From positions 1 to 20,093 of the IMG/VR virus record IMGVR_UViG_3300032893_002216: 20,093 nucleotides of DNA; one strand, written 5' to 3'. Positions 2,307-19,618 of the stretch are shown piece after piece. The DNA is from a virus. Position 1 is the stretch's first letter; each line of letters opens with the position of its first letter. The notes under the pieces were generated by a model. The model did not search any database and was not told where the DNA came from. It saw only the letters and a list, made by a program, of their open reading frames with translations. The position numbers and the translations under genes were made by a program.

Positions 2307-2452
2307 ACCCGGAGATCACGGCTGCTCTCAATGAAGTCCTGCTGCAGGCAGCGTTACGCGCTGAGCGGGCAAACCAGATTCGCGAAGCCGATCGTCGGGC
2401 GACTGAGTTGGCGAAACGAATGGATGCGAAGAGTGTAGCGCGCAGGGTGTGA
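2303..2452 (+). CDS. Small helical protein (49 aa)
   Basis: The ATG at 2303 overlaps the upstream stop (ATGA) and is preceded by a good GGAGAAG ribosome site. The 49-residue product (MNPEITAALNEVLLQAALRA, then ERANQIREADRRATELAKRM) is a continuous amphipathic, highly charged helix that could form a coiled coil or bind nucleic acid. No named family is recognised. The strong ribosome site and overlap support a real gene despite its length. Confidence 0.6.
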   Translation: MNPEITAALNEVLLQAALRAERANQIREADRRATELAKRMDAKSVARRV

Positions 2453-2659
2453 GGCTTCGGCCTTCTGGGATGCGCGTAGTGGTAAATGCCTGGATGTCGG
2501 TTATCCGGCGGCGGCTCTGCAAGAAACTCGTCTCAAGTGACATGCAGTCCGTCCATCTCTCCCTACCCTGCACGGTGAAATTCCGTGGGGGTAAGGGGGT
2601 GTTTGGGCGGATACAGAAATCTGAACTCAGTGACATGAACAATAGAGAAGGAAAATAAC
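2453..2659 (+). other. Non-coding leader with a stable hairpin
   Basis: No convincing gene lies in these 207 bases. The best frame begins at a GTG and has no family-like features. The main element is a hairpin at 2561-2599. CACGG at 2571-2575 pairs with CCGTG at 2583-2587 around a 7-base loop, and CCC-TACCC at 2561-2568 pairs with GGGTA plus a bulged A and GGG at 2589-2597. It is not followed by a T run, so it is not a standard terminator. It may be a leader structure for the operon starting at 2660, or a processing site. No clear -35/-10 pair was found. Confidence 0.45.
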
Positions 2660-2806
2660 ATGAGTATTGCTGAACAGATCAAGAGAGTGAAACTTGAATT
2701 GGCTCGCTCAAAACCTCGATCGCGTCGGCATGTCGAACTTGAGTTGCGTTTGCGTGATCTCATCGTGAGACAGCTTCGTTCAGAAAATCGCCGTCGCGTG
2801 GCTTGA
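2660..2806 (+). CDS. Small basic protein (48 aa)
   Basis: The 48-residue product (MSIAEQIKRVKLELARSKPR, then SRRHVELELRLRDLIVRQLR) is strongly basic and helical. An AGAAGGA ribosome site lies about 7 bases before the ATG. Arginine-rich helices of this kind can bind nucleic acids, but no family is recognised. It is the first gene after the 2453-2659 leader and is followed 14 bases later by the 2821 gene. This suggests the start of a transcription unit that runs into the NusG-like gene. Confidence 0.6.
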   Translation: MSIAEQIKRVKLELARSKPRSRRHVELELRLRDLIVRQLRSENRRRVA

Positions 2807-2820
2807 AGTGGGGGATAACG

Positions 2821-3222
2821 ATGGAAACACCGTTCGAGCGCTTCAAAAAAGCCTATCCCAAGCGTGACGGGTCCAATCCCTGGCAGCCGGCGCAGAAGAA
2901 GTTCGATCAGCTTGTGAAATCAGGCGTAGATCCTGAAGTCATCATCAAAAGCGCCGAGCGTTTTGCCCAGCAGGAGGCGCAGCGCGGCAATTTCGGCACT
3001 CGCTTCGTTCCGATGGCGTCAACTTGGCTCAACCAGCAGCGCTATGCAGATTTGACGGAGGTTGCGTCCAAAGCAGAACCGGACATGCACTGGGATGCAA
3101 TTCTGACGACCTACAAGCGGTTCGGGCATTGGTCGAGATATGCCGGTCCTGACCCGGATTCGCCGGCCTGTCGGTGTCCTCGGGAATTGCTGGCCAAGTA
3201 TGGCCTGGGGGAGGCCGTATGA
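2821..3222 (+). CDS. Replication-organizer-type C-terminal domain protein
   Basis: The 133-residue product begins METPFERFKKAYPKRDGSNP. It carries the pattern aYPKR..NPW.PA.KKF..L, then GVDPEVIIKSAERFA, then TRFVPMASTWLNQQRYAD (residues 1-85). That pattern is typical of the C-terminal domain of phage replication initiation or helicase-loader proteins. The rest (residues 90-133) is unfamiliar and includes CRCPRELLAKYG. The HTH initiator part normally found upstream is missing, so this is either a stand-alone module or a domain reused in another role. The start at 2821 has a GGGGGA element 6 bases upstream. The stop overlaps the next start (ATGA). Confidence 0.65.
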   Translation: METPFERFKKAYPKRDGSNPWQPAQKKFDQLVKSGVDPEVIIKSAERFAQQEAQRGNFGTRFVPMASTWLNQQRYADLTEVASKAEPDMHWDAILTTYKRFGHWSRYAGPDPDSPACRCPRELLAKYGLGEAV

Positions 3223-3464
3223 AAATCAGATATCCGACGGTCCTGGAGGCCCTGACTTACGAATGGCAATCTCGTGAGGATATCGAGCGGCAGGTTGGCG
3301 GTCCCTGCATGAGCCAGCTGAGCCGGCTCTACAACAATGGAAAGGTGCTTCACACGGTTGACGCGACGGTTGAACCATGGAGGCATCTGTACTGCAAGCC
3401 AAGGATTCTCAGGGAAGTCTGGATCGGCAAAACCCGCGTTGGGCATATAGGGGCTGCGGTATGA
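3219..3464 (+). CDS. Small winged-helix-like protein
   Basis: The 81-residue product begins MKIRYPTVLEALTYEWQSRE. It continues with IERQVGGPCMSQLSRLYNNG, then KVLHTVDATVEPWRHLYCKP. The pattern of helix, helix with a SQLSRLYNNG recognition-type segment, and a beta wing (KVLHTVD) fits a small winged-helix DNA-binding fold. The start overlaps the upstream stop (ATGA) and the stop overlaps the NusG-like gene start (ATGA). A regulator of the rightward operon is a reasonable inference. No named family is recognised. Confidence 0.6.
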   Translation: MKIRYPTVLEALTYEWQSREDIERQVGGPCMSQLSRLYNNGKVLHTVDATVEPWRHLYCKPRILREVWIGKTRVGHIGAAV

Positions 3465-3910
3465 ATGACAATTGGATGGTGATTTGCTCCAAGCCACAAC
3501 AGGAATCCCGAGCGGAAACCAACCTCCGCCGGCAATTCATGGAGGTTTATTGCCCTCGGGTTCGTGCACGGGCCTGCATCAAGCCGTTATTCCCCGGATA
3601 TCTGTTTGCGCGTGTATTCAATGATGACCAATTCAGGGTCATCGGCAATACCTATGGAGTCCGGCAATTGCTTAGGGTTGGAGACGAGATTGCGACGATC
3701 TCAAATCATGAAATCGTGCAGATCAGGGATCGCGAAGACAGGGACGGTATTATCAGACTCTTCAAGAGAGGTGATGCGGTACATTGGGGAGATATCCCCG
3801 CGATTTTCGAAGAAATGATTGACGACGAGCGTTGCAGTATTCTATTTAGTATGCTCGGACGTGCGAATCACAAGGTGTTGCGCGTAGCCGACCTTGCACC
3901 TGCCTGTTAA
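3461..3910 (+). CDS. NusG/RfaH-like transcription antitermination protein
   Basis: The 149-residue protein shows the NusG N-terminal domain pattern: W.VICSKPQQESRAETNLRR (residues 5-24), EVYCPRVRA (28-36), and the signature PLFPGYLFARVF (42-53), then VIGNTYGVRQLLRVGDEIA. The C-terminal part (about 100-145, FKRGDAVHW then ILFSMLGRANHKVL) matches a KOW domain. NusG-type proteins bind the RNA polymerase clamp, and specialised paralogues such as RfaH suppress termination and pausing in chosen operons. The gene precedes a rightward run of more than 16 kb of packaging, enzyme and virion genes without an obvious terminator, which fits a late antiterminator. It overlaps its neighbours by 4 and 1 bases. 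A specific recruiting DNA site was not found. Confidence 0.85.
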   Translation: MNDNWMVICSKPQQESRAETNLRRQFMEVYCPRVRARACIKPLFPGYLFARVFNDDQFRVIGNTYGVRQLLRVGDEIATISNHEIVQIRDREDRDGIIRLFKRGDAVHWGDIPAIFEEMIDDERCSILFSMLGRANHKVLRVADLAPAC

Positions 3911-4988: not shown

Positions 4989-5402
4989 TTGGTTACCTTA
5001 AGACCCGTAGGGCTACACGACTGGCAATTCCTCTATGATCTCCTCGCTGAAAGACCCAAGGAAGCCAACATCAGCCACAGGCAAATGCCCTCGATCGCAG
5101 AGCATGTCGCATTTCTGCGTTCAATACCCTACGCAGCCTGGTACATCGTTGAACATGACCACAAGCCAGCAGGCTCGATATACCTGTCAAAGCAAGACGA
5201 AATCGGCATCGCAATACATTCAGGTTTTCAACGCCTTGGTCTTGCCAAACAGGCCATTGAAGAGCTCATGCGCCAGCACCCAAGACCCAGATACCTCGCA
5301 AACATAGCCCCACTAAACCACATGAGCCAAAAGCTCTTCGCAGAACTAGGCTTCAACTTGATACAGCAGACATTCGAGAAGCATGGCAGCTCGAACACGT
5401 AA
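4989..5402 (+). CDS. GNAT family N-acetyltransferase
   Basis: The 137-residue protein has the GNAT layout: an N-terminal VTLRPVGLHDWQFLYDLLAE, a central AWYIVEHDHKPAGSIYLSKQ, the acetyl-CoA binding stretch SGFQRLGLAKQAIEELM (the R/Q..G.G/A motif), and the C-terminal NHMSQKLFAELGFNLIQQTF. The family moves an acetyl group from acetyl-CoA to an amine. Close relatives act on ribosomal proteins (RimJ/RimL) or on amino sugars (PseH in pseudaminic acid synthesis). The nonulosonate-type genes downstream make an amino-sugar substrate attractive, but this is inference. The start is a TTG directly after the upstream stop. It overlaps the terminase small subunit gene by 20 bases. Confidence 0.8.
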   Translation: MVTLRPVGLHDWQFLYDLLAERPKEANISHRQMPSIAEHVAFLRSIPYAAWYIVEHDHKPAGSIYLSKQDEIGIAIHSGFQRLGLAKQAIEELMRQHPRPRYLANIAPLNHMSQKLFAELGFNLIQQTFEKHGSSNT

Positions 5403-5942: not shown

Positions 5943-6179
5943 GAGTTGTTAGCCATAGCCAGCCGGGTCAAGCGTGATACGCGGAACCGGGACATCTTGG
6001 AGTTATGTGAGGCGGTCTTGTCTTGGAAGGGGGTGGTGCCAACTGTATCCAAGCAATCCAACATCTCTGAGATCAGGCCCCGGTTGATAGCCGGGGCCGC
6101 AAGGTGTCCTGAGTGTACTCGGCGTCGGTCCATGAGAACTGCATCGCAGCGGAAATGGCGAAAGAAGCGTACGAAGTAA
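5925..6179 (+). CDS. Small basic protein upstream of the terminase large subunit
   Basis: The 84-residue product begins MAVDPTELLAIASRVKRDTR. It continues NRDILELCEAVLSWKGVVPT, and has a basic C-terminus with a CPEC motif (residues 61-64, RCPECTRRRSMR). The KRDTRNRDILELCEAV helix followed by C..C and an RKWRKKR tail suggests a nucleic-acid-binding protein. No named family is recognised. It overlaps the terL start by 25 bases. No strong ribosome site precedes the ATG. A second, DNA-contacting terminase accessory is possible from its position only. Confidence 0.6.
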   Translation: MAVDPTELLAIASRVKRDTRNRDILELCEAVLSWKGVVPTVSKQSNISEIRPRLIAGAARCPECTRRRSMRTASQRKWRKKRTK

Positions 6180-7651
6180 TCTGGGCACCTCAGTCCGGGC
6201 CTCAGACGGCCTTATTGAGTTGTGAGGTGTTTGAGGTGTTCTTTGGGGGTGCTCGTGGGGGTGGGAAGACGGATGGGATGCTGGGGGATTGGATCAGCCA
6301 TTCCGACCAATATGGGGCGAATGCTTCGGGTCTGATGGTTCGACGGTCTTTGAAGCAGTTGGAAGACACCATCAAGCGATCGAAACAGCTTTATTACAAG
6401 TTGGGGGGGAAGTACAACGAGACGAGTAAAACGTGGGTTATGCCCGGGGGAGGCCAGTTGAAGATGGCCTACCTTGAACGGGATGAGGACGCCCAGAATT
6501 ATCAGGGTCACAGCTACACGAGGATCTATGTCGAGGAGATCGGCACTTTCCCCAGTCCGGACCCTATTTTTAAGCTCATGGCTACTTTACGCAGCGGCTC
6601 CGGGGTGCCTTGCGGGTTCCGTGCCACAGGCAATCCTGGCGGGCCTGGCCATCAGTGGGTTAGGGCTAGGTATATTGACCCTGCTCCGGGAGGTTGGAAG
6701 CTTGTGGAGGAGGCGTTTGTCAACCCTTTCACTGGCGATTCTATTAGCCGGGAGCGTGTATTCATCCCTTCAAGGGTGACTGAGAATAAATACCTGGGAA
6801 CCGAGTACATCGCCAACCTCCAGATGGTTGGAAGTAAGAACCTTGTAAGGGCCTGGCTGGAGGGGGACTGGTCGGTCATTGAAGGGGCGTTCTTTCCTGA
6901 ATTCTCTGAGGCTCGTCATGTCATTCTTCCGTTTAGAATACCGGATGACTGGCTTCGTTTTCGCAGTATGGATTGGGGAAGTGCTTCTCCTTTCAGTGTC
7001 GGATGGTGGGCTGTGGCCAGCGAGGATCATCGCCTTCCTGACAAGCGCATTATTCCTAGGGGTGCTCTGGTTCGTTACCGCGAATGGTATGGAGCCTCCA
7101 AACCGAATGTCGGGCTGAAACTCACCGCGGAGGAAGTAGCCGATGGGATCAGACTTAGGGAGTCAGGAGACCCCAAGATCAGTTATGGAGTTCTTGATCC
7201 GGCAGCTTTTGCTGTCGATGGAGGTCCCAGTATCGCCGAACGTATGGGTAAACGTCAGATTTACTTCCGAGGGGCTGACAACAAACGTATTGCCTCCCGA
7301 GGAGCTCTTGGCGGATGGGATGCTGTCCGTGCAAGACTTAAAGGGGACGACCATCCCGGCATCTTCTTCTTCGACACCTGCGTAGATTCGATCAGGACCC
7401 TTCCTGCCCTTCAACATGACCCCGACAGAATGGAAGACGTCGATACCGAGGGGGAGGATCATGCCCCTGATGAAATCCGCTATGCCTGTATGTCCAGGCC
7501 TTACGCCAGAACGTCTTCCGAATATTCCACCTATGAGGGACCAAGTCCACGGGGACCTGTCCAGATGAAAGCTTTTCCGGTGAGACAGCCCACCCTGGAA
7601 AACCTCTGGTCCGAGGCGGAACGCAACTATCCCAGGTCGAGGCGGATTTGA
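6155..7651 (+). CDS. terL: Terminase large subunit (ATPase/nuclease)
   Basis: The 498-residue protein is the DNA-packaging motor. The Walker A motif GGARGGGKT is at residues 31-39, and the Walker B-type RIYVEEIGTF at 123-132 contains the catalytic acidic residue. ATGNPGGPGH (157-166) is the coupling segment. The C-terminal RNase H-like nuclease has acidic residues in SMDWGSASPF (D273), GVLDPAAF (D348) and HAPDEIRYACM (D439). The length is usual for the family. The start at 6155 (MAKEAYEVIWAPQSGPQ) was chosen over an ATG at 6113 because the family-like sequence begins there. The two genes overlap by 25 bases. It is followed by a TTGA overlap with a tiny membrane protein. Confidence 0.93.
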   Translation: MAKEAYEVIWAPQSGPQTALLSCEVFEVFFGGARGGGKTDGMLGDWISHSDQYGANASGLMVRRSLKQLEDTIKRSKQLYYKLGGKYNETSKTWVMPGGGQLKMAYLERDEDAQNYQGHSYTRIYVEEIGTFPSPDPIFKLMATLRSGSGVPCGFRATGNPGGPGHQWVRARYIDPAPGGWKLVEEAFVNPFTGDSISRERVFIPSRVTENKYLGTEYIANLQMVGSKNLVRAWLEGDWSVIEGAFFPEFSEARHVILPFRIPDDWLRFRSMDWGSASPFSVGWWAVASEDHRLPDKRIIPRGALVRYREWYGASKPNVGLKLTAEEVADGIRLRESGDPKISYGVLDPAAFAVDGGPSIAERMGKRQIYFRGADNKRIASRGALGGWDAVRARLKGDDHPGIFFFDTCVDSIRTLPALQHDPDRMEDVDTEGEDHAPDEIRYACMSRPYARTSSEYSTYEGPSPRGPVQMKAFPVRQPTLENLWSEAERNYPRSRRI

Positions 7652-7770
7652 AGTCGGATTTCCCATCGTTGAATGACGACAAGGAACTTGAGAAGTTTAT
7701 TGGCTGCGTTCTTCTCGTCACTGCCTTGGTAACGACTGCAGTCTACTTCTTGGTCTACTTCTTCACATGA
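7648..7770 (+). CDS. Tiny membrane protein between terL and the enzyme cassette
   Basis: A 40-residue frame starts at TTG overlapping the terL stop (TTGA) and ends with an ATGA overlap to the aminotransferase gene. The product has an acidic N-terminus (SDFPSLNDDKELEKF) and one hydrophobic helix at about residues 20-39 (IGCVLLVTALVTTAVYFLVY). GAGG lies 5 bases before the TTG. It bridges the two genes exactly, so it is probably translated. A single-pass inner-membrane protein is predicted. A holin-like role is possible but unsupported. Confidence 0.65.
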   Translation: MKSDFPSLNDDKELEKFIGCVLLVTALVTTAVYFLVYFFT

Positions 7771-8930
7771 GATACCAAAAATCCCAAGAAGAGCTCCAGC
7801 GGGTCAAGCAGATCATCCCGCTGGCCTCCCAAACGTTTTCCAAGGCCTATAACCGGTGGCCGAAGCAGGCCCCGCATTTTCTTTCTCATGGTAAAGGTGG
7901 GAGAGTCTGGGATGTCGATGGCAACCAATACGTTGATCTCGTCTCGGCACTCCTGCCAAATGTCCTGGGGTACTGCGACCCTGACGTTGACCAGGCCGTC
8001 ATCGATCAGCTGGGGAGAGGCATTAGCTTTAGTCTGCCCACTCTGTCAGAAGTCGCTCTTGCCGACCGCCTCGTTGAGTTCATTCCATGCGCTGAAATGG
8101 TCCGGTTCGGTAAATCAGGGACTGATGCCACCTCAGCAGCAGTCCGACTCGCGCGTGCAGTCACAGGTCGCGACCACATCATCATGTGCGGATACCACGG
8201 CTGGCAAGACTGGAGCATAGGGCAGGCTGACAATCTCGAGAACAGGAAGGGTGTGCCGCGTTCAGTTCGCGAGATGACCACCCAGATCAGGCCTGGTGGA
8301 ATCAAGTGGATCAATCATGTAAATCCTCCAGCCGCCATCATCGTGGATTGTTCGAAAATACAGTTTCATGATGCAAGGCAGTTTCGCGATCTAGCAGATG
8401 ACTGCGGAGCTCTCCTCATCTTCGATGAAGTCATAACGGGGTTTCGATGGGATATCGGGGGAGCTCAATCGGTCTGGGGTGTGAAACCTGACCTTGCCTG
8501 TTTCTCAAAGGCGATGGGAAACGGGATGCCGATCTCTGCGATCGTCGGTCGTGCCGATCTCATGAAGAACTTTGACCATGTCTTCTTCTCCGGAACGTTT
8601 GGTGGGGAAACCCTGTCCATAGCAGCAGCGATCGCCTGCATCGACAAGATCGAACGTGAGGACGTTTGTGAGAAGTTGTCAGTTTCCGGTCGCCTCCTGA
8701 AAGCTGAATTCGGCTCCTCTGATCAGGTCTGGCTGACCGGCCATCCCGCGTTCCAGCAACTGAACTTTGCCTCAGCGGAGGTCAGGGCTGCCTACCTCAC
8801 CTCCATGCTGGAACGCGGGATCCTCGTTAATGCGTCCCTCAACGTCTGCTACGCCCACAACCGTTCCGACCTGATGCAGGTGATCGACGCCCACCACGCC
8901 TCCTTGGAGGCTCTTAAAGTCGCGGCTTGA
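7767..8930 (+). CDS. Class III PLP aminotransferase, glutamate-1-semialdehyde aminomutase-like
   Basis: The 387-residue enzyme shows the class III pattern: VWDVDGNQYVDLVSALLPNV (48-67), cofactor-phosphate loop GKSGTDATSAAVRLARA (115-131), YHGWQDW (143-149), the FDEVITGFR motif with the PLP-contacting aspartate (219-227), and the Schiff-base lysine in CFSKAMGNGMPISA (K248). The closest pattern is glutamate-1-semialdehyde 2,1-aminomutase, but this protein is roughly 40 residues shorter than the usual form. GSAM-like enzymes occur in bacterial surface-sugar clusters with SpsF- and NeuB-type genes, where they probably aminate a sugar, so a tetrapyrrole role is unlikely here. It starts with an ATGA overlap and leads the enzyme cassette. 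The substrate is not evident from the sequence. Confidence 0.88.
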   Translation: MRYQKSQEELQRVKQIIPLASQTFSKAYNRWPKQAPHFLSHGKGGRVWDVDGNQYVDLVSALLPNVLGYCDPDVDQAVIDQLGRGISFSLPTLSEVALADRLVEFIPCAEMVRFGKSGTDATSAAVRLARAVTGRDHIIMCGYHGWQDWSIGQADNLENRKGVPRSVREMTTQIRPGGIKWINHVNPPAAIIVDCSKIQFHDARQFRDLADDCGALLIFDEVITGFRWDIGGAQSVWGVKPDLACFSKAMGNGMPISAIVGRADLMKNFDHVFFSGTFGGETLSIAAAIACIDKIEREDVCEKLSVSGRLLKAEFGSSDQVWLTGHPAFQQLNFASAEVRAAYLTSMLERGILVNASLNVCYAHNRSDLMQVIDAHHASLEALKVAA

Positions 8931-9451
8931 AGTACGAACCTCGACATCTCGCGCAGGCTCTCCCTGAGGAGCAGGTCAGGGATCCCTTCATCAGGAAGTT
9001 GAAACGCGGCTTTCCCCAAAAGGCCAAGTCGGAACGGCATACGCCCGAGGAGTCCTGGGGGTTTCATCTCCTGATCGATTGCCTTGATATGGACGACGAA
9101 ATCGATGACGAGAAAGACATCGAGGCGTTCTTTACCGAGCTGATCCAGGCTTTGGACATGAAACCCCTGTCGGAATTCTTTTGCGTCAGGGTCGATAATG
9201 AAGAAGGCCGAGGTATCTCTGCGTTCCAGATGATCACGACATCCCACATTGCCATGCACTTCGATGACGACGGGCATAACGGGTTCATGGACGTGTTTTC
9301 TTGTAAGAAGTTCGATCCCAGGATCGTTCTTCAGATGATCGAGAAGCACTTCAAGCCTGACAACATGATGGTGCAGTTCGTTTATCGGGATACGGGTATT
9401 GTCGTCGGACCCGATGACAAGAACGACTATGAGATGCACAACACCATATGA
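8927..9451 (+). CDS. SpeD-type pyruvoyl decarboxylase homologue (AdoMet decarboxylase family)
   Basis: The 174-residue protein carries WGFHLLIDCLDMD (44-56) followed by the processing region TTSHIAMHFDDD and GFMDVFSCKKFDP. Relative to Thermotoga SpeD (Ser63, His68, Cys83), the serine that becomes the pyruvoyl group (S106), the histidine (H111, +5) and the cysteine (C126, +20) are all present at the right spacing. The residue before the serine is Thr instead of the usual Glu. SpeD makes decarboxylated AdoMet for spermidine synthesis, but some homologues are known to have become arginine or ornithine decarboxylases, so the substrate is open. There is an extra N-terminal stretch of about 40 residues. 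The start is TTG overlapping the aminotransferase stop (TTGA), and the stop overlaps the pentein gene (ATGA). Confidence 0.85.
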   Translation: MKYEPRHLAQALPEEQVRDPFIRKLKRGFPQKAKSERHTPEESWGFHLLIDCLDMDDEIDDEKDIEAFFTELIQALDMKPLSEFFCVRVDNEEGRGISAFQMITTSHIAMHFDDDGHNGFMDVFSCKKFDPRIVLQMIEKHFKPDNMMVQFVYRDTGIVVGPDDKNDYEMHNTI

Positions 9452-10284
9452 TCACGCCTTCCAGATGGAATGGCCCCGTCTTCCTGATGAACTTCCCTAT
9501 TTCAGTGTCAAGTGACGTTCCCAACAACGCCCTTATGCGTCCGGGTACGATCTACGACAAGAAGAGGGCCTGCGATCAGTGGCTGGAGTTCTATCGAATA
9601 ATGACCGGGGAAGCGCTGGTCTACGTTTTACCCGGACATGATCACCTCCAAGACCTTCCCTTCGTCGCAAACCTCGGTTGTTATCTCCCGCATATCAGAA
9701 ATGACGACGTTGTCCTTCTTTCGAACTACACGTCAGAACCAAGGATAGGTGAGGAGAGGTTCGGGTTCCGCTTCTTCAACAGCTTCGATTACAGCGTTGT
9801 TCAATCCCCCTATTGTTGGGAAGGGGAAGCCGATCTCAAGTGGATCAGGGACAACATCTATATCGGTGGTATCGGGATGCGCTCCACCCCTGATGCTTAC
9901 AAGTGGATGCGATTGAATTTCGACATGGACGTTCACGAGATCAAAATAAACGATCCAAAACTCTATCACCTCGACTGCGTTCTTCTTCCGCTCAGTGAAA
10001 ACAAGGCTCTTGTGAACGTGTCCGTCGTTGACAAGAAAGACCTGAAGACCCTGGAAAGCCTGGTCGAGGTCATCCCGGTCCCGAAAGAGTATGTTTATCA
10101 GGGTTGGACGAACAGCATCATTCTGAACGGCATCGTCATGCATTCACCTGCCGACAAGCCGATCACGCCGTTCGCAGATTTGTTGGACAAGCACGATCTG
10201 AAACTTGCTACTTTTGATCTCACAGAGTTCGACAAGTCGGGAGCGGATTTGTCATGTCTGGTGATGCACATGAACTACAGATGA
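9448..10284 (+). CDS. Pentein-fold guanidino-modifying enzyme (amidinotransferase/DDAH-like)
   Basis: The 278-residue protein has the pattern of the arginine-modifying pentein superfamily. It has an N-terminal VFLMNFPISVSSDVPNNALM (11-30), FVANLGCYLPH (72-82), the substrate-acid motif WEGEADLKWIRDNIYIGGIG (124-143), the catalytic histidine segment LYHLDCVLLPLSENKALV (172-189, H174 and D176), and a C-terminal nucleophile cysteine in GADLSCLVMHM (C270). The His, acidic and Cys residues are all present, so an active enzyme is expected. Family members use a Cys-amidino intermediate to hydrolyse or transfer the guanidino group of arginine, agmatine or methylarginine. It is translationally coupled to the SpeD-like gene upstream and the aldo/keto reductase downstream (ATGA overlaps). 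Either an agmatine-type step or amidination of an amino sugar is possible. Confidence 0.8.
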   Translation: MITPSRWNGPVFLMNFPISVSSDVPNNALMRPGTIYDKKRACDQWLEFYRIMTGEALVYVLPGHDHLQDLPFVANLGCYLPHIRNDDVVLLSNYTSEPRIGEERFGFRFFNSFDYSVVQSPYCWEGEADLKWIRDNIYIGGIGMRSTPDAYKWMRLNFDMDVHEIKINDPKLYHLDCVLLPLSENKALVNVSVVDKKDLKTLESLVEVIPVPKEYVYQGWTNSIILNGIVMHSPADKPITPFADLLDKHDLKLATFDLTEFDKSGADLSCLVMHMNYR

Positions 10285-10952
10285 GAATCGGTCTCGGCAC
10301 GGCGCAGTTCGGGTCTCCTTACGGGATTACGAACAAGGGCCAGCCTTCCCGCAAGGAGTGCGAGAAGATCGTTGAAACTGCGCTCGATGCCGGGATCGTC
10401 TATTTCGACACGGCCGCCTATTACGGGGAAGCGGATTTGATCCTCTCCTCCCTCCTTCCCAGTGAAGGCGTCCGTGTCGTGACCAAGGTCAAAACACCCA
10501 GCGAAGTCCAACAGTCCGTCGATCTCTTCGGAAGAAATCTCTGGGGCATCCTGAGTGATCGGTTCATAGCTGAAGGTATCAGGTCTGGGATTTCCGTTTA
10601 CTGGCCGATCAAGATCGATCCAACAGCACAAATCGTGCAGATGCCCCTGAACATCGCGGATCCCCGAAATCTTCCCTTGTTACGTCTGTACAAGGCCCAG
10701 GACACGGAAGTCCACGCCCGTTCTGTCTTTCTTCAAGGGCTTCTTCTTCAGAGAGGGGCGACCATCAGACAGTGCCTCAAATACGTCCTTGATAAGCCCG
10801 TCGATGTCGCCCTGGTAGGAGTGAACTCAGCGGACGAGCTGAAGGAAATCCTGGAGGCTGTCGAAACCCTCGAACAGGAAAAATGCACAGATATTCCCTT
10901 TATCGAGCCTGAAATGCTTGATCCCAGAGGATGGCCAAATGCCAACAATTAG
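10281..10952 (+). CDS. Short aldo/keto reductase
   Basis: The 223-residue protein begins MRIGLGTAQFGSPYGITNKG, then VYFDTAAYYGEADLILSSLL, and later IVQMPLNIADPRNLPLLRLY and VDVALVGVNSADELKEILEA. These are the hallmark segments of the NAD(P)H-dependent aldo/keto reductase barrel. Asp43, Tyr48 and Lys69 of the catalytic tetrad are present. The segment that normally holds the fourth residue (LLHD) is reduced to NLWGILSDRF with no histidine, and about 60-80 residues are missing compared with typical members. Such reductases accompany GSAM-, SpsF- and NeuB-type genes in bacterial clusters. The start at 10281 forms an ATGA overlap. An altered reaction, epimerase-like or non-redox, is possible. Confidence 0.82.
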   Translation: MRIGLGTAQFGSPYGITNKGQPSRKECEKIVETALDAGIVYFDTAAYYGEADLILSSLLPSEGVRVVTKVKTPSEVQQSVDLFGRNLWGILSDRFIAEGIRSGISVYWPIKIDPTAQIVQMPLNIADPRNLPLLRLYKAQDTEVHARSVFLQGLLLQRGATIRQCLKYVLDKPVDVALVGVNSADELKEILEAVETLEQEKCTDIPFIEPEMLDPRGWPNANN

Positions 10953-11283
10953 CCCGTTCACACCACAAACAGGAAGCGCGGGATCTATCGCCGTCATCGC
11001 TTCGACAAGCGCTTCCCTGCTTCAGTTACCCTTCGGAGGTGGAAGCCAGATCAGGGTCGCCAACTCCGCATCAATTCCAACCTATATGGATTTCGGGGCA
11101 TCAACCGTTGTTGCTTCAGCATCTACTCCGGTTGGAATCATGATGAATCCGACATCCACGCAAATCTTCACGTTTGACACCATCGCAACAGGAACGGCAG
11201 GCAGCAAGACGCAGTATGTCTCTGTCATCGCGAGCGCTGCTACTACTACCCCGATCATCTTCACCCGGGGTGAAGGTTTTTGA
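10939..11283 (+). CDS. Small beta-rich protein, probable virion decoration protein
   Basis: The 114-residue product begins MPTISPFTPQTGSAGSIAVI. It is dominated by Ser, Thr, Ala, Gly and Val in beta-strand-like runs (QIRVANSASIPTYMDFGAST, TPVGIMMNPTSTQIFTFDTI, KTQYVSVIASAATTTPIIFT), has no cysteine and no membrane segment, and is poor in charge. This is typical of small capsid decoration or head-surface proteins with a jelly-roll-like fold. It overlaps the reductase gene by 14 bases and the cytidylyltransferase start by a TTGA junction. It therefore sits in the middle of the sugar-enzyme genes, which raises the idea that it is what gets decorated. Confidence 0.6.
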   Translation: MPTISPFTPQTGSAGSIAVIASTSASLLQLPFGGGSQIRVANSASIPTYMDFGASTVVASASTPVGIMMNPTSTQIFTFDTIATGTAGSKTQYVSVIASAATTTPIIFTRGEGF

Positions 11284-11873
11284 GGACTGTCGCCATCATA
11301 CAGGCGCGCATGGGATCGACTCGACTGCCCCGTAAAGTGCTGATGGATCTCGGTGGCAAGCCTGTCCTGAAATGGGTGTTCGACGCTGCAAAGGCTGCAA
11401 AGCTCGTTCATCATGTCGTAGTAGCCACTCCGGACTATGAGATCGTTGAGTTCTGTGATGCAAACGAAATCCCATGGAGCATGGGTCCTGAGGACGATGT
11501 TCTCGAACGGTTCATCATTGCGGCAGAACATACCAGAGCAACCAAGATCATCAGGTTGACTGCTGACTGTCCCTTCCTTGATCCTGAAATCATCGATCAG
11601 TGCATCCTTCTCAATGAAAGCGCTGTCGATGAATGGCCCGATGGAATGGATGTTCAGGTCATCGATCCCAGATGGCTGCCAATGGGGGACAGAGAACACG
11701 TCGTTCCCGTCAAGAACAACCTTCCCCAGCTGGCCTGTCCTGTGGGGAATATGAGGCACGTCAGGGTGACCCTTGATACGCCTGAAGACCTTGAACGCTG
11801 TAGAACTATGGCGAAGTTTCTTCCGAAAAACCGACCTCCTAAATGGAGGGAGACGATCTCTGCGCATGACTGA
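11280..11873 (+). CDS. spsF: SpsF-type cytidylyltransferase
   Basis: The 197-residue protein starts with the CTP-binding signature IIQARMGSTRLPRKVLMDLG (6-25). It continues with VVVATPDYEIVEFCDAN (46-62), EDDVLERFIIAAE (71-83), the RLTADCPFLDP motif with the metal-binding aspartate (92-102), GMDVQVI (122-128) and DREHVVP (137-143). This is the CMP-Kdo/CMP-sialate synthetase-like SpsF family, expected to activate an acidic sugar as its CMP derivative. It is roughly 40-50 residues shorter than usual SpsF proteins, mainly in the second half. The start is TTG overlapping the decoration gene stop (TTGA). It overlaps the NeuB gene by 8 bases, so synthase and activating enzyme are translationally coupled. 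Confidence 0.88.
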   Translation: MRTVAIIQARMGSTRLPRKVLMDLGGKPVLKWVFDAAKAAKLVHHVVVATPDYEIVEFCDANEIPWSMGPEDDVLERFIIAAEHTRATKIIRLTADCPFLDPEIIDQCILLNESAVDEWPDGMDVQVIDPRWLPMGDREHVVPVKNNLPQLACPVGNMRHVRVTLDTPEDLERCRTMAKFLPKNRPPKWRETISAHD

Positions 11874-12492
11874 AGTCGTCGCTGAAATCTCCGGAAATCA
11901 TGGCGGCTCGATCGTTCATGCACTTGAGCTCATCACGAGAGCAAAGCTGGCCGGTGCAGATTCCGTCAAGTTCCAGTGCTTTGATCCCCAGAAACTCGCG
12001 GAAAAACGTTCGAAAAACCCTGAAGTCCTGAAGTTAGTAAATGGTGCTCCCCTCCTTGATCTATATCGCAAAACTCATACTCCGAAAGAGTGGTTTCCGC
12101 GGTTGATCAACCATGCTCGTACTCAGGATATCGCGTGGTTCTCTTCCGTGTTTGATCCCAGTGATGTCCAGTTTCTCGAAAGGCTCGAATGTCCCCGCTA
12201 CAAGATCAGCGCGTTTGAAATGCTGGACTGGGAATTGATCAGGGCGGTCACGGAAACGGGAAAGCCGATCGTGATCTCGGTCAGACCGACAGAGAAGGTC
12301 ACGGTCTTACAAGCTTCCGACTACAAGGGGATCATGAGGCCTCTTGGTGTCTCTGATCACGGTGGAAGGCTCTGGCGCAACGTTCCCATGGTGGAATGGC
12401 ACTTGAAGCTTCCCGGGGTTGAGACCTTGGACAGCGATTTTTCCCTGACTCCTGATGATATGGAGCAGCTGATTTTTGAGATGCGAGCATGA
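11866..12492 (+). CDS. neuB: Minimal NeuB-type nonulosonate synthase
   Basis: The 208-residue protein has NeuB-barrel motifs: EISGNHGGSIVHALELITRA (7-26), GADSVKFQCFDP (30-41), WFSSVFDPSDVQFLERL (91-107), PRYKISAFEMLDWELI (110-125), GVSDHGG (161-167) and a compressed MVEWHLKLPG...SDFSLTPDDME end (175-200). NeuB enzymes condense phosphoenolpyruvate with a 6-deoxy or N-acyl hexosamine to form sialic, legionaminic or pseudaminic acid. The usual enzyme is about 330-350 residues with a C-terminal antifreeze-like SAF domain. That domain is absent here, and a barrel stretch (the LLHC.S.YPTP region) is also missing. Activity is therefore uncertain. The start at 11866 gives an 8-base overlap with spsF. 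The stop overlaps the dehydratase start (ATGA). Confidence 0.85.
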   Translation: MTEVVAEISGNHGGSIVHALELITRAKLAGADSVKFQCFDPQKLAEKRSKNPEVLKLVNGAPLLDLYRKTHTPKEWFPRLINHARTQDIAWFSSVFDPSDVQFLERLECPRYKISAFEMLDWELIRAVTETGKPIVISVRPTEKVTVLQASDYKGIMRPLGVSDHGGRLWRNVPMVEWHLKLPGVETLDSDFSLTPDDMEQLIFEMRA

Positions 12493-13340
12493 AGATTCTC
12501 GTTACCGGAGGTTCAGGTTCGTTCGGCCAGTCCTTCGTGCGTCGAATGTTGCATAACTGGGATTGCACGCGTGTCGTGGTTTTTTCGAGGGGCGAGCATA
12601 CCCAAGCCGCAATGGCGCAGGAATTGAACGATCCTAAACTGAGGTTCTTTATTGGCGATGTCAGAGATCGCGACAGGTTGCGCCGCGCCATGCAGGGCAT
12701 TGATACCGTGGTTCATGCGGCTGCTCTGAAGCGTATTGAGGTGGCCGAATACAATCCGCTAGAGGTCAAGAAGACGAACATTGATGGTTCTGAAAATGTC
12801 ATTGAAGCAGCGACTGATGCGGGTGTTCGAACGGTTGTGGCGCTTTCCACCGATAAGGCCTATCAACCTGTCAACTTCTACGGCGCATCCAAGTTTCTTG
12901 CGGAAGGGCTATTTCTCAAAGCGAACAATACACGTGGAACGTTTGGGCCAAGATTTGCCGTGTGTCGCTATGGTAACGTATGGGGGTCGAACGGTTCTGT
13001 GGTGCCGAAGTGGCAGGAAATCCTGAAGACATCCGACACTGTTCCAGTAACTGATCCTGATTGCACCCGCTTCTATATGACTCTGGACGAGGCCGTCGAT
13101 CTGGTGGTTAGGGCCATCAAAGATATGAAGGGCGGTGAAACCTTCATCCCAACTCTTCCTGCTTATCGTCTTGGTGACCTTGCCGAGGCCATGGGTGCGA
13201 AGATCAAAGTTCTGGGTCTTCCTGACTGGGAAAAGCGTCACGAGTCCATGGGGCCTGGCAATTCCAGCGACAAGGCGCGTAGGATGAGCGTTGAAGAGCT
13301 CCGCGGCATCCTGGGTATAACGGTCGCCAAAGCGGCATGA
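12489..13340 (+). CDS. pseB: UDP-N-acetylhexosamine 4,6-dehydratase (PseB/FlaA1/CapD type)
   Basis: The 283-residue short-chain dehydrogenase has the NAD(P) motif VTGGSGSFG (5-13), VVHAAALKRIEVAE (74-87), the STDKAYQPVNFYGASKF segment (120-136) with Asp122-Lys123 and the Tyr131-x3-Lys135 pair, CRYGNVWGSNGSV (159-171), and a late LPDWEKRHESM. This is the polysaccharide biosynthesis dehydratase group that removes water from UDP-GlcNAc to give a 4-keto-6-deoxy sugar, the first step of pseudaminic acid synthesis in PseB. Inverting and retaining versions cannot be told apart by eye. It is shorter than the roughly 330 residues usual for PseB. It overlaps the neuB stop and the portal start (both ATGA). 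Confidence 0.87.
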   Translation: MKILVTGGSGSFGQSFVRRMLHNWDCTRVVVFSRGEHTQAAMAQELNDPKLRFFIGDVRDRDRLRRAMQGIDTVVHAAALKRIEVAEYNPLEVKKTNIDGSENVIEAATDAGVRTVVALSTDKAYQPVNFYGASKFLAEGLFLKANNTRGTFGPRFAVCRYGNVWGSNGSVVPKWQEILKTSDTVPVTDPDCTRFYMTLDEAVDLVVRAIKDMKGGETFIPTLPAYRLGDLAEAMGAKIKVLGLPDWEKRHESMGPGNSSDKARRMSVEELRGILGITVAKAA

Positions 13341-15718
13341 ACGATCTTTTCGATCCTGACGACGAGTCGATCAAGGACGACCAGACAGCTGGCGCCTACT
13401 GGAAGTGCGAGATCGATCGCTCTCAGAAGGAGTTCAAGACGTATTGGGAGAAGTGCGACAAGATTGCCAAGCGCTATCGTGACGAGCGCGACCAAAACCG
13501 GGAGAACGCAAAACGCTTCAATATCCTGTGGTCGAACATCCAGACCATGAAGCCGGCGGTCTATGCCAAGGCGCCGAAGCCGATCATTGAGCGACGCTTT
13601 CTTGAACGTAATGATATCGAGCGCGTTGCTGGTATTGCTCTTCAGCGTGCTGTGGCAGTTGAGATCGAAACAAGCGACTTTGAGGAGGCGGTCGGCGGTA
13701 AGCAGGGTGCGGTTATGGATTACCTGCTCTACAGCCGCGGCATGGTATGGCTCAGGTATGAAGCTGATCTCAACACTGAGGACGAATCCACCCCTCTTAC
13801 TGATATTCCAGAAGGCAATGACGAAGTTGAACAGGAGGAAACAAGTCTTCCCACTGTTACAGCCGAGCGAATCTGCATCGACTACGTCCACAGAAAAGAT
13901 TACCTCTGCGATCCCGCCAGAACCGAACAGGAATGCCGATGGAAAGCCAAGAGATCATGGCTGACGAAACGACAGGTCAAGGACAAGTTCGGGGATGAAA
14001 TCGCAGGTAAAGTGGAATATCGCCAGATCAACGATGACGATCGTTATGACGACAAGCAGGCCCCGAAAGAAAGACGAGCAGAGTTCTGGGAAATCTGGGA
14101 CAAGGTCCGCCGAAAGGTATGGGTGATCAACACCGGCTATGACGGGATCTGCAAGGTTACAAAAGACCCCCTTGGACTGAAGAACTTCTGGCCGTGCCCG
14201 AGGCCTCTCTATGGCACGATGACGGATGACAAGCTGGTCCCGATTCCAGATTATATCGAGTACCAGGATCAGGCCGAACAGCTCGATCAGTTGTCTCAAA
14301 GGATCGACAAGATCACCCAGGCCATCAAGGCCGTTGGTTTCTTCGATGCTTCCCAGCCCGAACTGGGACGTTTGTTCGAATTCGGAACAGACAACAAGAT
14401 GGTGCCGTGCGAGACATGGGCCGTCATGAAGGACAAGGGCGGTCTAGCAGGGAGCGTAGACTTCTTCCCGCTGGACATGCTGATCAAGACGCTGGAAACC
14501 CTTCAGACGGTCTTTGATAGTCAGTTACAGCGCCTCTATGAAGTGACCGGGATTGCCGACATCATCAGGGGCAATTCTTCCCCTGAAGAAACCTATGGCG
14601 CCCAGAAGATCAAAGGGCAGTTTGCGACCTTGAGGCTTCAGGATCGGCAGCGGGATGTCTCGCGATTCTGCCGGGATATAGTTTCGATCATGACCGAGCT
14701 GATCGCGGTTCACTTCGAACCAGAGACGATCGCGGCCATGACGGGGTTGGGGGACCAGAACTCTCCTGACGCCCAGTATTTTCAGCAGGCCATGGAGCTT
14801 GTCGGGGATGCCCGGCTTCGTTCCTTCCGGGTCGATATCGAGACGAATTCAACTATCGAGCTCGATATCAACGAGGACAAGAAGAACACCACGGAGTTTG
14901 TCAACGGCGTAGCCCAGTATTTCAACCAGATCATGCCGGCGGCGGAAAAGATGCCGCAACTTATTCCTTTGGCCGGCAACGTCCTTCTCTGGGCGATCAG
15001 GAGATTCAGGACCGGACGTGAGTTGGAAAGCGTCTTTGAACGCGCTGTTGATGATTTCACCAGGATGTCTCAGTCGGGTGCTCTGACTGTTCAACAGCCC
15101 AACCCTGAGATGCTGAAGATCCAGGCCCAGCAGCAGTCCGACATGGCCGATCTGCAGCTTCAGAGGGAGAAGATGCAGAATGATGCCCAGATGTCCGAGG
15201 CCCAGATGCGCTTCGAGATGTTGAAGCATCAGAATGACATGGCGTTCCAGCAGAAACAGCATGAAGAGCAGATGGAGCTGGAAAGGTTGAAATTGGGTGC
15301 CCAGGTCCACCTGAAGGACAAGGACATTCAGCAACAAGACAAGGAACATCAGTACGAGATGGACCTGAAGCAGGTCGATCACGCCCACGACTCGACCGAG
15401 AGAGAAAAGGATCGCTCCCACGAGTCCCTGCACAAACTGGCTGATCAAGAGCATGAAGGCAAAATGAAGAAGGAAGATCATGCTCATGAGGCCACTGAAA
15501 AGGGCAAGGATCGTCAGGCACAGTCTGAACAGGCAGACAAGACCCATTCCGCCACGGAGAAGGTCGCCAAGATCAAGGCAAATCCGAAGGGCGAGGATAG
15601 CGACTTGTCTGATCTCAAGAAGCAACTTGACGAGCTGATGAAGCACCACAAGGCACCCGTTGAAATCCTGAGGGGCAAGGACGGGAAGATCACTGGGGCA
15701 AGGCGTGTGCTGCAGTGA
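13337..15718 (+). CDS. Portal protein with long C-terminal coiled coil
   Basis: The 793-residue protein has the arrangement of a large phage portal. The N-terminal region has RFNILWSNIQTMKPAVYAKA and a clip/stem-like middle (DYIEYQDQAEQLDQLSQRID, then ALYEVTGIADIIRG-like and GAQKIKGQFATLRLQDRQRD at about 415-440). The family C-terminus PVEILRGKDGKITGARRV ends it. From about residue 588 to 770 the chain is almost only Gln, Glu, Lys, Asp, His and Met, with recurring DHAH..TE..KDR units, which predicts a long coiled coil resembling the barrel of P22-type portals. The portal forms the dodecameric DNA gateway of the head and docks the terminase. Its start overlaps the dehydratase stop (ATGA), and the stop overlaps a GTG start. 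Confidence 0.88.
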   Translation: MNDLFDPDDESIKDDQTAGAYWKCEIDRSQKEFKTYWEKCDKIAKRYRDERDQNRENAKRFNILWSNIQTMKPAVYAKAPKPIIERRFLERNDIERVAGIALQRAVAVEIETSDFEEAVGGKQGAVMDYLLYSRGMVWLRYEADLNTEDESTPLTDIPEGNDEVEQEETSLPTVTAERICIDYVHRKDYLCDPARTEQECRWKAKRSWLTKRQVKDKFGDEIAGKVEYRQINDDDRYDDKQAPKERRAEFWEIWDKVRRKVWVINTGYDGICKVTKDPLGLKNFWPCPRPLYGTMTDDKLVPIPDYIEYQDQAEQLDQLSQRIDKITQAIKAVGFFDASQPELGRLFEFGTDNKMVPCETWAVMKDKGGLAGSVDFFPLDMLIKTLETLQTVFDSQLQRLYEVTGIADIIRGNSSPEETYGAQKIKGQFATLRLQDRQRDVSRFCRDIVSIMTELIAVHFEPETIAAMTGLGDQNSPDAQYFQQAMELVGDARLRSFRVDIETNSTIELDINEDKKNTTEFVNGVAQYFNQIMPAAEKMPQLIPLAGNVLLWAIRRFRTGRELESVFERAVDDFTRMSQSGALTVQQPNPEMLKIQAQQQSDMADLQLQREKMQNDAQMSEAQMRFEMLKHQNDMAFQQKQHEEQMELERLKLGAQVHLKDKDIQQQDKEHQYEMDLKQVDHAHDSTEREKDRSHESLHKLADQEHEGKMKKEDHAHEATEKGKDRQAQSEQADKTHSATEKVAKIKANPKGEDSDLSDLKKQLDELMKHHKAPVEILRGKDGKITGARRVLQ

Positions 15719-16425
15719 AGGTTGCTTTAGTTGGTGGTGCTCCGTCCTCTCGAATGCTTGCGCCCTACAAGGACGAAAGTTGGGAAATATGGGCGACAAG
15801 TCCTTCGAACTACCAGTTACTTCCAAGGGTTGACAGGTGGTTCGAACTGCACAAGGACTTTCAGTTGTGGGGCGGGAAGCACGGTCATCCCGACCAGAGC
15901 TTCTATGTTGAATGGCTCGAACATCATTCGAAAGAGCGATTCAGGCTCTACATGCTCGACCAGGAAGACATTGCTCACGCCCATGTCTTTCCGTGGAAAG
16001 AGCTCGTTAGTGAGTTCTCACCCTATTTTTTTACGTCAACGTTTTCGTGGATGTTCGGATATGCGCTTCAGCAGGGCGCAACGGAGATCGGCATATACGG
16101 TGCTGATATGTCCACGGATGAGGAATACCGCAAGCAGCGTCCTCATTTCCAGCACTTCATCTGGCTGGCGCTGCAACGCGGTGTGAAGGTAACTGCGCCC
16201 TATGAATCGGACATCATGCAGCCGCCACCGCTTTATGGTGTCAGCTTCACGACACCCCGAGGGCGCAAGTTCGTTGAAAGAGAATATGAACTGAAGCGTC
16301 GAATTGCAGAAATGGAAGCCGAGGAAACCAAGCTGAACAAGATGAGACTTCAACTGCTCGGCTCCCTCGATGACAACGATTACATGCAGACGACGTGGAC
16401 TTCTGATCCCATAGGAGAAAGTTAA
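15715..16425 (+). CDS. Rossmann-like phage protein of unknown function
   Basis: The 236-residue protein starts with GTG (GTGA overlap with the portal stop). It has an N-terminal nucleotide-binding-like loop, MKVALVGGAPSSRMLAPYKD, then SWEIWATSPSNYQLLPRVDR and WFELH. A second alpha/beta part follows (TSTFSWMFGYALQQGATEIG, IYGADMSTDEEYRKQRPHFQ), and the end is a coiled coil (about 185-220). The GGAPSS loop and A...G..EIGIYGAD layout recall DUF115/MptE-like and some glycosyltransferase folds. Similar proteins occur near phage portals without sugar genes, so a morphogenesis role is the other option. No catalytic residues can be assigned with confidence. Confidence 0.7.
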   Translation: MKVALVGGAPSSRMLAPYKDESWEIWATSPSNYQLLPRVDRWFELHKDFQLWGGKHGHPDQSFYVEWLEHHSKERFRLYMLDQEDIAHAHVFPWKELVSEFSPYFFTSTFSWMFGYALQQGATEIGIYGADMSTDEEYRKQRPHFQHFIWLALQRGVKVTAPYESDIMQPPPLYGVSFTTPRGRKFVEREYELKRRIAEMEAEETKLNKMRLQLLGSLDDNDYMQTTWTSDPIGES

Positions 16426-17163: not shown

Positions 17164-17411
17164 CGCCAATCGAAAAAGCGGAAATGCAACAAGCCCTGAT
17201 CGCACAATACAAGGCTGCGGAATGGGCCTTGTTCAGGGTCAATGACGCCATTGCGAAGGGTGCGCATTTGATCTCATTGAAGGCCGAAGACGAAGCTCTG
17301 GCTGACAGATCGGTTGACTTTGAGCTCACGCTTGAAGAGAGCGCGGAAGTGTTCAAAGTCATCGGTGATCTCATTTCCGCGCGTATGAAGGCGATCGAGG
17401 CCAAGCTTTGA
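17160..17411 (+). CDS. Small helical phage protein
   Basis: The 83-residue product (MTPIEKAEMQQALIAQYKAA, then EWALFRVNDAIAKGAHLISL) is predominantly helical and acidic toward the end (FELTLEESAEVFKVIGDLIS). No motif, membrane segment or signal is seen. It starts with an ATGA overlap and its stop overlaps the TTG start of the beta-propeller gene. It could be a chaperone or accessory protein for the structural proteins around it, from position only. Confidence 0.6.
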   Translation: MTPIEKAEMQQALIAQYKAAEWALFRVNDAIAKGAHLISLKAEDEALADRSVDFELTLEESAEVFKVIGDLISARMKAIEAKL

Positions 17412-19618
17412 TCATCAGTATGGCAGATTTTGCCAATACGGTTCCGGTGGCTGTTCCGTCTCCTGTATGGTCGCCCATATCAATAGATGGGGGCGGTTAT
17501 GTAACCGGAATGGACTTCGCCTCTGATGGCACCATGGTCTGTCGAACTGACGTAGGAAATGCGCAGGTAGGTACTGCATCAACACCGTGGACAAGATTGC
17601 TGACATCGACCTCGATGCCGGCAAATTCGTTTTTTCTGAATGGCTCTGGAAACTGGATTCAATCCACCGGAATTTATGAAATCAGGATTGCGCCGAGCAA
17701 TACTCAAATCTTCTACATGCTCTATTATGGCAAGGTCTATAAGACTACAAACCAAGGCGTGTCTTGGACTCTTCTCAGCAATTTTCCCTCCATCACCTAC
17801 AATCCATCGCAATCAAACAACGGGATCGCAAGCAGGTGGTGGGGCCACAAGATGGCCATTCATCCGACCGACCCGAACACGGTTGTTGTTGGTTCGCCGA
17901 CCAACGGCCTCTACTACACGACTGATGGCGGGGCATCTTGGACAGCTATTTCAGGAATTACGACACCAACAAGCAATAACGGCTATTCCGGGGTTTGCTT
18001 CGATCCAGCGACACCAACAACGGTATTTGCCTGTTCCAATGGCAACGGCGTTTGGCAGACGACGACTGGCGTGACGGGCACATGGACGAAGCTGAGTTCT
18101 TCTGGAATGCCAACGCAGGTCACGGATGCGATCGTCACAGGCGGGAACTATATTTGCTGCGACGGCACTCATATCCAGATCTACTCCGGAACGTGGGCGC
18201 AACAATCTCCGTCGTCATCGAATGGCTATTTCACGCTCGATGTGGATCCGGCAAATTCGAACCACATCGTTGCTCTTGATATCGCTGGCGCTCAGCCTAC
18301 TCAGTCTCATGATGGCGGATCGACATGGGCTAGTCATGCGTACATCACGGGTACGATATCATCGTCAGGAGATGTTCCCTGGCTCAGTTTGAAATCGCCA
18401 TCTGACGGCTATCTCGGGACCGTGAAAGTTCTGTTCGATCCATCAGTTACAAATCGTGTGTGGGCAGCCTTCGGTTTCGGGGTTCTCTACACCGACAACA
18501 TTGCGACAACCAGTGGAGGTCCGGCGCCTGGTGGTGCGATCTCGTGGATTCCAAAAAGCGCAGGTATTCAGATTTTGGTGGGCAGACGGATTATTTCGCC
18601 TTCCAACGGATTGCCATTGGCCTCCGCGGAGGATTGTCAGGAGTTTCTTATCAAGAATCCCGCGATCAATCCCTCGACTTTCGGAATTACAAGTCAGGGT
18701 GTCCAGGAAGCCGGGACCGGATTGGACTATGCGATGGGATCGCCCCGCGTTATCGCAGCGTTCAACACATGGTCAGGCAATCCGGCCGCAAGCGGTTATT
18801 CCACGGATGGCGGCACGACATGGACCAAGTTCACCAATGGTCCAGAGGGCAGTTACACCGGCGGAAACATAGCTGCTGCAAGCTCTACAAATTTTGTCGC
18901 TCTTCAGTTCAACCAGGCAAATCCTGTCATTTACACGAATAATGCTGGTTCAACGGCATGGAGTGCAGCATCAGGATTGCCGACTTTCACATGGGCGTTC
19001 GGTTCAAACTCCTGGACTGCAAATACGCAGTATCTTTGCTGTGATGCAGCTGGAACATACTTCGTCTACAACAAAGGAAACGGTACCTACTATTCGACCA
19101 ATGGTGGTGCCAACTGGTCATCAGGGAGTTCGACCGCTCTTCATTCCGGTTCATCATTTCAGCCGCAGATCAAAGCTGTCCCAGGCAACGCAGGACATCT
19201 CTTTTATGCTGACGGAGGTGCTAACAGCAATCCTCAGCCCAACAGTTCAGGCCCCCTTTGGTATTCCACCAACGGCGGCGCATCGATGACATGGAATCTT
19301 CTCTCAAATATCGAGAGTGTTTTTTGTGTCGGCTTCGGTGCTGCTGCTTCGGGGCAGACATATCCAACCGTATGGATCGTTGGATGGGTGAAGGGCGGAC
19401 TGAAAAATGGGGTCGCCACTTCTTCCTATACATATGGCGTATGGGTGTGCAAGTCAGGGCCACCATTTTCGGCGGCGAACTGGACATGGTTGATTGATTT
19501 CCCGTTCGGAAGCATAGACCAGGTGGCAGATATCACCGGAGACAACAACGACTCAGCGAAGTGCTACTTGGCGTTCCAAGGTACGAGTTTTGGCTACGGA
19601 AAAAATCTGACCTATTAG
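17408..19618 (+). CDS. Asp-box beta-propeller protein, GH74/sialidase-like fold
   Basis: The 736-residue protein contains at least six Asp-box-type repeats (S/T-x-D/N-x-G-x-x-W): TTNQGVSW (~111), TTDGGASW (~170), SHDGGSTW (~300), STDGGTTW (~464), STNGGANW (~563) and STNGGASMTW (~620). The start (WSPISIDGGGYVTGMDFASD, then GTMVCRTDVGNAQ) and the KMAIHPTDPNTVVVG segment resemble GH74 xyloglucanase and sortilin-type propellers. Such folds bind or cut polysaccharides, and in phages they occur in tail or surface proteins that recognise host glycans. No signal peptide is present, as expected for a virion protein. The TTG at 17408 overlaps the upstream stop (TTGA) with a GAGG element 8 bases before it. 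An ATG at 17420 is the alternative. Catalytic residues were not identified. Confidence 0.75.
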   Translation: MIISMADFANTVPVAVPSPVWSPISIDGGGYVTGMDFASDGTMVCRTDVGNAQVGTASTPWTRLLTSTSMPANSFFLNGSGNWIQSTGIYEIRIAPSNTQIFYMLYYGKVYKTTNQGVSWTLLSNFPSITYNPSQSNNGIASRWWGHKMAIHPTDPNTVVVGSPTNGLYYTTDGGASWTAISGITTPTSNNGYSGVCFDPATPTTVFACSNGNGVWQTTTGVTGTWTKLSSSGMPTQVTDAIVTGGNYICCDGTHIQIYSGTWAQQSPSSSNGYFTLDVDPANSNHIVALDIAGAQPTQSHDGGSTWASHAYITGTISSSGDVPWLSLKSPSDGYLGTVKVLFDPSVTNRVWAAFGFGVLYTDNIATTSGGPAPGGAISWIPKSAGIQILVGRRIISPSNGLPLASAEDCQEFLIKNPAINPSTFGITSQGVQEAGTGLDYAMGSPRVIAAFNTWSGNPAASGYSTDGGTTWTKFTNGPEGSYTGGNIAAASSTNFVALQFNQANPVIYTNNAGSTAWSAASGLPTFTWAFGSNSWTANTQYLCCDAAGTYFVYNKGNGTYYSTNGGANWSSGSSTALHSGSSFQPQIKAVPGNAGHLFYADGGANSNPQPNSSGPLWYSTNGGASMTWNLLSNIESVFCVGFGAAASGQTYPTVWIVGWVKGGLKNGVATSSYTYGVWVCKSGPPFSAANWTWLIDFPFGSIDQVADITGDNNDSAKCYLAFQGTSFGYGKNLTY

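Follow-up and report, generated by a model that had tools for sequence, protein, structure and literature searches.

The enzymes of a sugar cassette in a viral DNA record are smaller than their usual bacterial forms, which raises the question of whether they are broken or were trimmed during evolution in phages. The window analyzed in the present study is an entire IMG/VR virus record of 20,093 bases, which is linear and probably a fragment; no DNA-level relatives of this window were found among annotated phages. Our favored reading, which we consider likely with a probability of roughly 0.7, is that a cassette for a nonulosonic (sialic acid-like) acid occurs in tailed phages, seemingly from soil, and that its enzymes were trimmed in phage genomes.

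Gene content of the cassette

The cassette (7767-13340) lies between the gene for the terminase large subunit (6113-7651; PF03237, E 4e-6, below the cut-off) and that for a probable portal protein (13337-15718), which was assigned by position and size and has no Pfam match. Because of this location, late expression is probable. The cassette begins with a 387-residue class III (HemL-like) aminotransferase (AT; 7767-8930; PF00202, E 1.3e-44), a 174-residue S-adenosylmethionine decarboxylase-like protein (8927-9451; PF02675, E 1.1e-17), and a 278-residue amidinotransferase/arginine dihydrolase-like protein (9448-10284; NF052232, E 8.7e-20, below the cut-off). These are followed by a compact aldo/keto reductase (AKR) of 223 residues (10281-10952; PF00248, 55.6 bits, cut-off 24), a Ser/Thr-rich protein of 114 residues (10939-11283), which has no family match and, judged from its sequence only, is perhaps structural, and a compact SpsF-type cytidylyltransferase of 197 residues with a TTG start (11280-11873; PF02348, E 9.5e-26, 91.4 bits, cut-off 22.6). 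The last two genes encode a compact NeuB/PseI-like synthase of 208 residues (11866-12492; PF03102, E 1.6e-29, 103.5 bits, cut-off 22.1) and a PseB-like UDP-GlcNAc 4,6-dehydratase of 283 residues (12489-13340; PF02719, E 1.6e-81; TIGR03589, 339 bits, below the cut-off of 407.75). All of these genes are on the + strand, and the residue counts given in the initial annotation for AKR, SpsF, NeuB, AT, and the dehydratase were all correct. The Pfam matches of these five enzymes all exceed the respective family thresholds.

The genes of the pseudaminic acid pathway in the fragment are PseB-like, PseI-like, and SpsF-type, with one GNAT acetyltransferase (137 residues; 4989-5402, + strand; PF00583, E 7.8e-9) as a candidate for the PseH-type step. 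No PseC- or PseG-like gene was recognized in this 20-kb linear fragment. Together with the nearby S-adenosylmethionine decarboxylase, the amidinotransferase-like protein may modify the sugar with an amidino or amine group. Relatives of the amidinotransferase-like protein occur in Campylobacter and Bacteroides phages (46 phage records). Downstream of the portal gene, 15715-16425 (+ strand) encodes a phage protein family that is a candidate nonulosonic acid transferase. The best nine PDB matches to the profile of this family were all GT42 sialyltransferases, at weak scores (E 0.024-0.2), which suggests a transferase as a lead; PF06002 did not match the window, including 15715-16425. The homologue of this gene in another phage (L184:13010-14770) is broken by an apparent intein (CVAPETRILTSDLRWIPASEVKDGDELIAFDEYS).

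The reading frames of the cassette are open, and most neighbors share a few bases (e.g., ATGA at 10281 and 12489). Therefore, there is no frameshift and no lost 3′ end, as the initial annotation had held for frameshifts, and frameshift or truncation was rejected as the cause of the shortness. The shortness itself would fit decaying pseudogenes or an assembly artefact; however, the same lengths recur in 15 independent contigs, with open frames and purifying selection, and this explanation is scarcely credible.

Parts absent from the NeuB barrel

NeuB had been described as lacking the C-terminal SAF domain. We found no SAF in frame in the window NeuB, nor a separately encoded, standalone SAF reading frame in the window or at the further loci with a compact NeuB (best E 0.82). 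The absence is real but not distinctive, because SAF was also missing from 16 of 85 cellular NeuBs (and from 54 of 97 other viral NeuBs). The cellular cases indicate that SAF is not strictly required in this family.

A further loss, which the initial annotation overlooked, lies within the barrel. The window NeuB aligned to PseI structures over residues 1-140 and then weakly from 175, and the gap between these stretches indicates that NeuB is shortened internally as well as C-terminally. Approximately 40 barrel residues are absent, exclusively from the stretch that runs from β5 to β8. The segments from β1 to β5 have normal lengths (28/59/19/25), and the β5-β6, β6-β7, and β7-β8 segments comprise 15/10/14 residues versus 33/26/21 in cellular relatives. 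Across the alignment of the compact clade, the corresponding values are 15 versus 33, 10-11 versus 26, and 14-22 (median 16) versus 21, with a tail of 22 versus 102 residues.

An AlphaFold2 model of the compact NeuB, made from ten compact sequences without templates (pLDDT 88.5, pTM 0.86), contained eight strands and no α5-α7. It superposed on residues 11-262 of Campylobacter jejuni PseI (PDB 8h2c) with a Z of 22.4 and an rmsd of 2.8 over 198 residues. The model and the segment lengths place the absent helices at NeuB residues 140-144 (α5; 12283-12297), 152-156 (α6; 12319-12333), and 165-174 (α7; 12358-12387), all on the + strand; the names α5-α7 follow the model and TIM barrel order rather than a comparison with PseI secondary structure. 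In the model, the protein is not the complete (β/α)8 barrel of the NeuB/PseI family, as it has the eight strands with no helices between β5 and β8. C. jejuni PseI shares the barrel fold and active-site residues with the compact NeuB, whereas the latter has neither SAF nor α5-α7 and falls far under the cut-off of the PseI equivalog TIGR03586 (138.8 versus 340.25 bits). A Foldseek search of the model against BFVD returned no close viral NeuB.

Despite these losses in length, the main active-site residues were retained. When binding-site positions were taken from the literature (PMC6795526), the equivalents of Glu25, Gln55, Lys129, Ser154, Tyr186, Ser213, His215, Glu234, His236, and Asp247, which include metal, PEP, and substrate residues, were invariant in 15 compact NeuBs. 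The Thr110 position is Ser in the compact NeuBs, and the Asn184 position is Asp (mostly) or Glu in all but one. In the Neisseria enzyme, Arg314 of SAF touches the substrate (PMC6795526). This residue is absent from the compact NeuBs, and so their substrate preference may differ. KDO8P synthase is a SAF-less relative of NeuB. In our favored reading, the compact NeuB is probably still a PEP-condensing synthase, in which the chemistry would take place at the mouth of the barrel (Glu, Lys, two His, Tyr, and Asp), as in KDO8P synthase.

The outer face of the sheet was considered using positions assumed to face outward, which were set by strand alternation rather than coordinates. At positions 139 and 145, every compact NeuB has a hydrophobic residue, whereas those of cells are mostly polar there; the other assumed outward positions remain hydrophobic, except for 178, which is mixed. 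The face bared by helix loss would then still be hydrophobic, and may be covered through homo-oligomerization or by another protein of the cassette.

Relatives and origin of the compact NeuB

Scans of viral contigs yielded 15 further contigs with a NeuB of the same compact length at 50-68% identity. One of these (L127) is a fragment, which leaves 15 usable compact NeuBs including that of the window. Of the other compact-NeuB records, 14 were checked for a terminase, and each had a PF17289 or PF03237 match. Annotated phages contained just one partial NeuB match. The distance from the β4 Lys to the β7 SDH motif was 48-50 residues in the compact NeuBs (the misanchored L123 and the fragment L127 were left out); elsewhere, where measurable, it was at least 70, and in cells at least 79.

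In a tree of 205 shared columns, the 15 compact NeuBs formed a single clade with a support of 100/99 and no cellular rows. The grouping of short forms as a viral clade, which the initial annotation had raised, therefore holds for NeuB. The closest rows are NeuBs from viruses that have no SAF and are intermediate in length (235-287 residues), and in two NeuBs (L136 and L130) the same β5-β8 connections are partly shortened. Branch support just beneath the clade was moderate (93/82 and 88/76), and some neighboring branches are long. The tree reads as stepwise loss within viruses, with the direction inferred and some branches long. dN/dS was 0.08-0.27 for the closest compact-NeuB pairs with unsaturated dS, and the median pN/pS over all pairs was 0.41, a value inflated by saturation. 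Since the strands and catalytic residues are all retained, NeuB appears to have been trimmed by selection rather than broken. The description of the enzymes as streamlined and not broken is borne out for NeuB by the clade, purifying selection, the invariant active site, and viral intermediates; the tree also supports a long residence in phage genomes, for NeuB only.

Equally short homologues in ordinary bacteria would speak against this reading. No complete compact NeuB was found among the 80 best cellular matches listed, and no genuine one in 299 Pseudomonadota genomes. A cellular frame of 215 residues in these genomes was rejected as a cut gene because it borders the edge of its contig (3,159 bases). 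A match of 190-193 residues (L059), in which the anchor motifs are absent, was set aside. Cellular SAF-less NeuBs of about 263-277 residues (e.g., L055, L057, L082, and L099) resemble the compact form in the absence of SAF; however, their spacing from the β4 Lys to the β7 SDH is normal, at 80-81 residues. These findings bear on the view that only general genome compaction was at work, with dispensable pieces missing and short forms acquired already short from bacteria. SAF-less cellular NeuBs of about 275 residues do exist, and phage genes are reportedly shorter in general than their host homologues (PMC5083919). We nevertheless regard compaction only as improbable, because internal deletions were seen in no complete cellular NeuB (the 80 best matches listed and 299 genomes), the deletions are confined to β5-β8, and the partly shortened neighbors are viral.

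A second lineage of mini-NeuBs was detected in six contigs, namely, the L184 phage and five more viral contigs. The cassette of L184 has its own compact AKR and a very divergent NeuB of 201 residues (PF03102, E 2.6e-10). According to the alignment, NeuBs of this lineage are shortened between β5 and β8, and also between β2 and β3. Their branch in the tree is very long and lies apart from the compact clade, a position from which a separate origin is likely. Another phage (L195) encodes an ordinary-length NeuB (2314-3342) together with a second-lineage mini-NeuB (5989-6633).

The short NeuB may instead be a catalytically dead or repurposed barrel with a non-enzymatic role, such as a sugar-binding or regulatory subunit. 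The loss of three helices and SAF, the frequent Asp at the Asn184 position, the neighboring AKR without its catalytic His, and the ordinary-length NeuB beside the mini-NeuB in L195 are consistent with such a role. However, it appears unlikely given that the residues for metal, PEP, and substrate do not vary among 15 members, dN/dS is well below 1, and PseB, AT, and SpsF genes accompany NeuB. Returning to a working synthase, we tentatively propose, at slightly below even odds, that a minimal functional TIM barrel evolved in phages at least twice: the outer helices of the second half of NeuB would have been deleted with the strands and active site kept, and the bare sheet covered by oligomerization or by cassette partners.

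Other cassette enzymes and related systems

Lengths were counted from the initial residue up to the stop, and enzymes of bacterial NeuB loci served as the cellular counterparts. The cellular medians were 334 residues for NeuB, 326 for PseB, 245 for SpsF, and 431 for AT, and the window enzymes are all shorter. The phage medians were 284 (compact group) and 302 for PseB, and 211 and 230 for SpsF. The window AT (387) is the shortest in its set, and the window SpsF (197) is near the short end. Phage enzymes were shorter than cellular enzymes for NeuB (p 9e-12), PseB (p 1.5e-7), and AT (p 0.009) in tests that ignored sequence relatedness. On its core profile PseB was not shorter; therefore, the difference is mainly C-terminal. 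The dehydratase, which had been noted as short, is indeed below the cellular median at 283 residues, but this is an ordinary length for a phage PseB. The proposed parallel shrinkage is thus upheld statistically for NeuB, PseB, and SpsF and is weak for AT, while for AKR the support comes from only three phage sequences.

The initial annotation had also stated that motif order was kept. This is the case for SpsF, which retains QARMGSTRLPRKV, TADCPFLDP, DGMDV, REHV, and RVTLDTPED, but not for AKR. The best stretch of the 223-residue window AKR covers positions 1-79 of 291 in the PF00248 profile; Asp43, Tyr48, and Lys69 of the tetrad are present, and His is absent at the β4 position in an alignment with L079. 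Three phages are known to encode a compact AKR: the two relatives of the window form are in L173 (213 residues) and L184, the latter without the tetrad Asp, and annotated phages contained none. The AKR model was too weak to use (pLDDT 58.7).

PseB, AT, and SpsF genes travel together with the compact NeuB. In several relatives (e.g., L004, L006, and L007), SpsF is fused to a HemL-like aminotransferase in a protein of approximately 670 residues (at about 3050-5060 in L006 and L007); the window genes are separate. An O-antigen ligase-like (Wzy_C) protein, below the cut-off, adjoins the cassette in L006 (8690-9997).

TIM barrels without some helices and short phage genes are already known, and the compact NeuB is a variant of these. 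Endo H, a GH18 TIM barrel without α5 and α6 (PMC3408457), is likewise a natural eight-strand barrel short of some outer helices; however, it is an unrelated hydrolase, has lost two helices rather than three, and is not from a phage. Auxiliary metabolic genes of cyanophages are reportedly shorter in general than their host homologues (PMC5083919) and resemble the cassette as phage metabolic enzymes below host length, whereas the compact NeuB has lost a specific part of its fold and belongs to a phage-only clade. The prophage genes epaA and epaB, which mediate pseudaminic acid 8-epimerization (PMC12053666), also represent phage-encoded nonulosonic acid metabolism that changes a surface sugar. 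In contrast to the cassette, they convert pseudaminic acid made by the host and involve neither a synthase nor compaction. In the literature searched, we found no description of a phage nonulosonic acid synthase or of a phage-only, catalytically conserved NeuB clade without three consecutive helices.

If NeuB forms the sugar acid, SpsF would convert it to the CMP-activated form, and the cassette product may decorate the virion or host surface. If active, the compact NeuBs would show, with natural intermediates, how far the commonest enzyme fold can be cut down. Phages would then use miniature enzymes to make sialic acid-like sugars of their own, a capacity relevant to how they may alter virion or host surfaces, and the compact enzymes could serve as small biocatalysts.

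Elsewhere in the window, 3377-3910 encodes a phage NusG-like protein (PF02357), and 17408-19618 encodes a 736-residue protein that carries Sortilin-Vps10/BNR repeats and may be associated with the tail and bind glycans.
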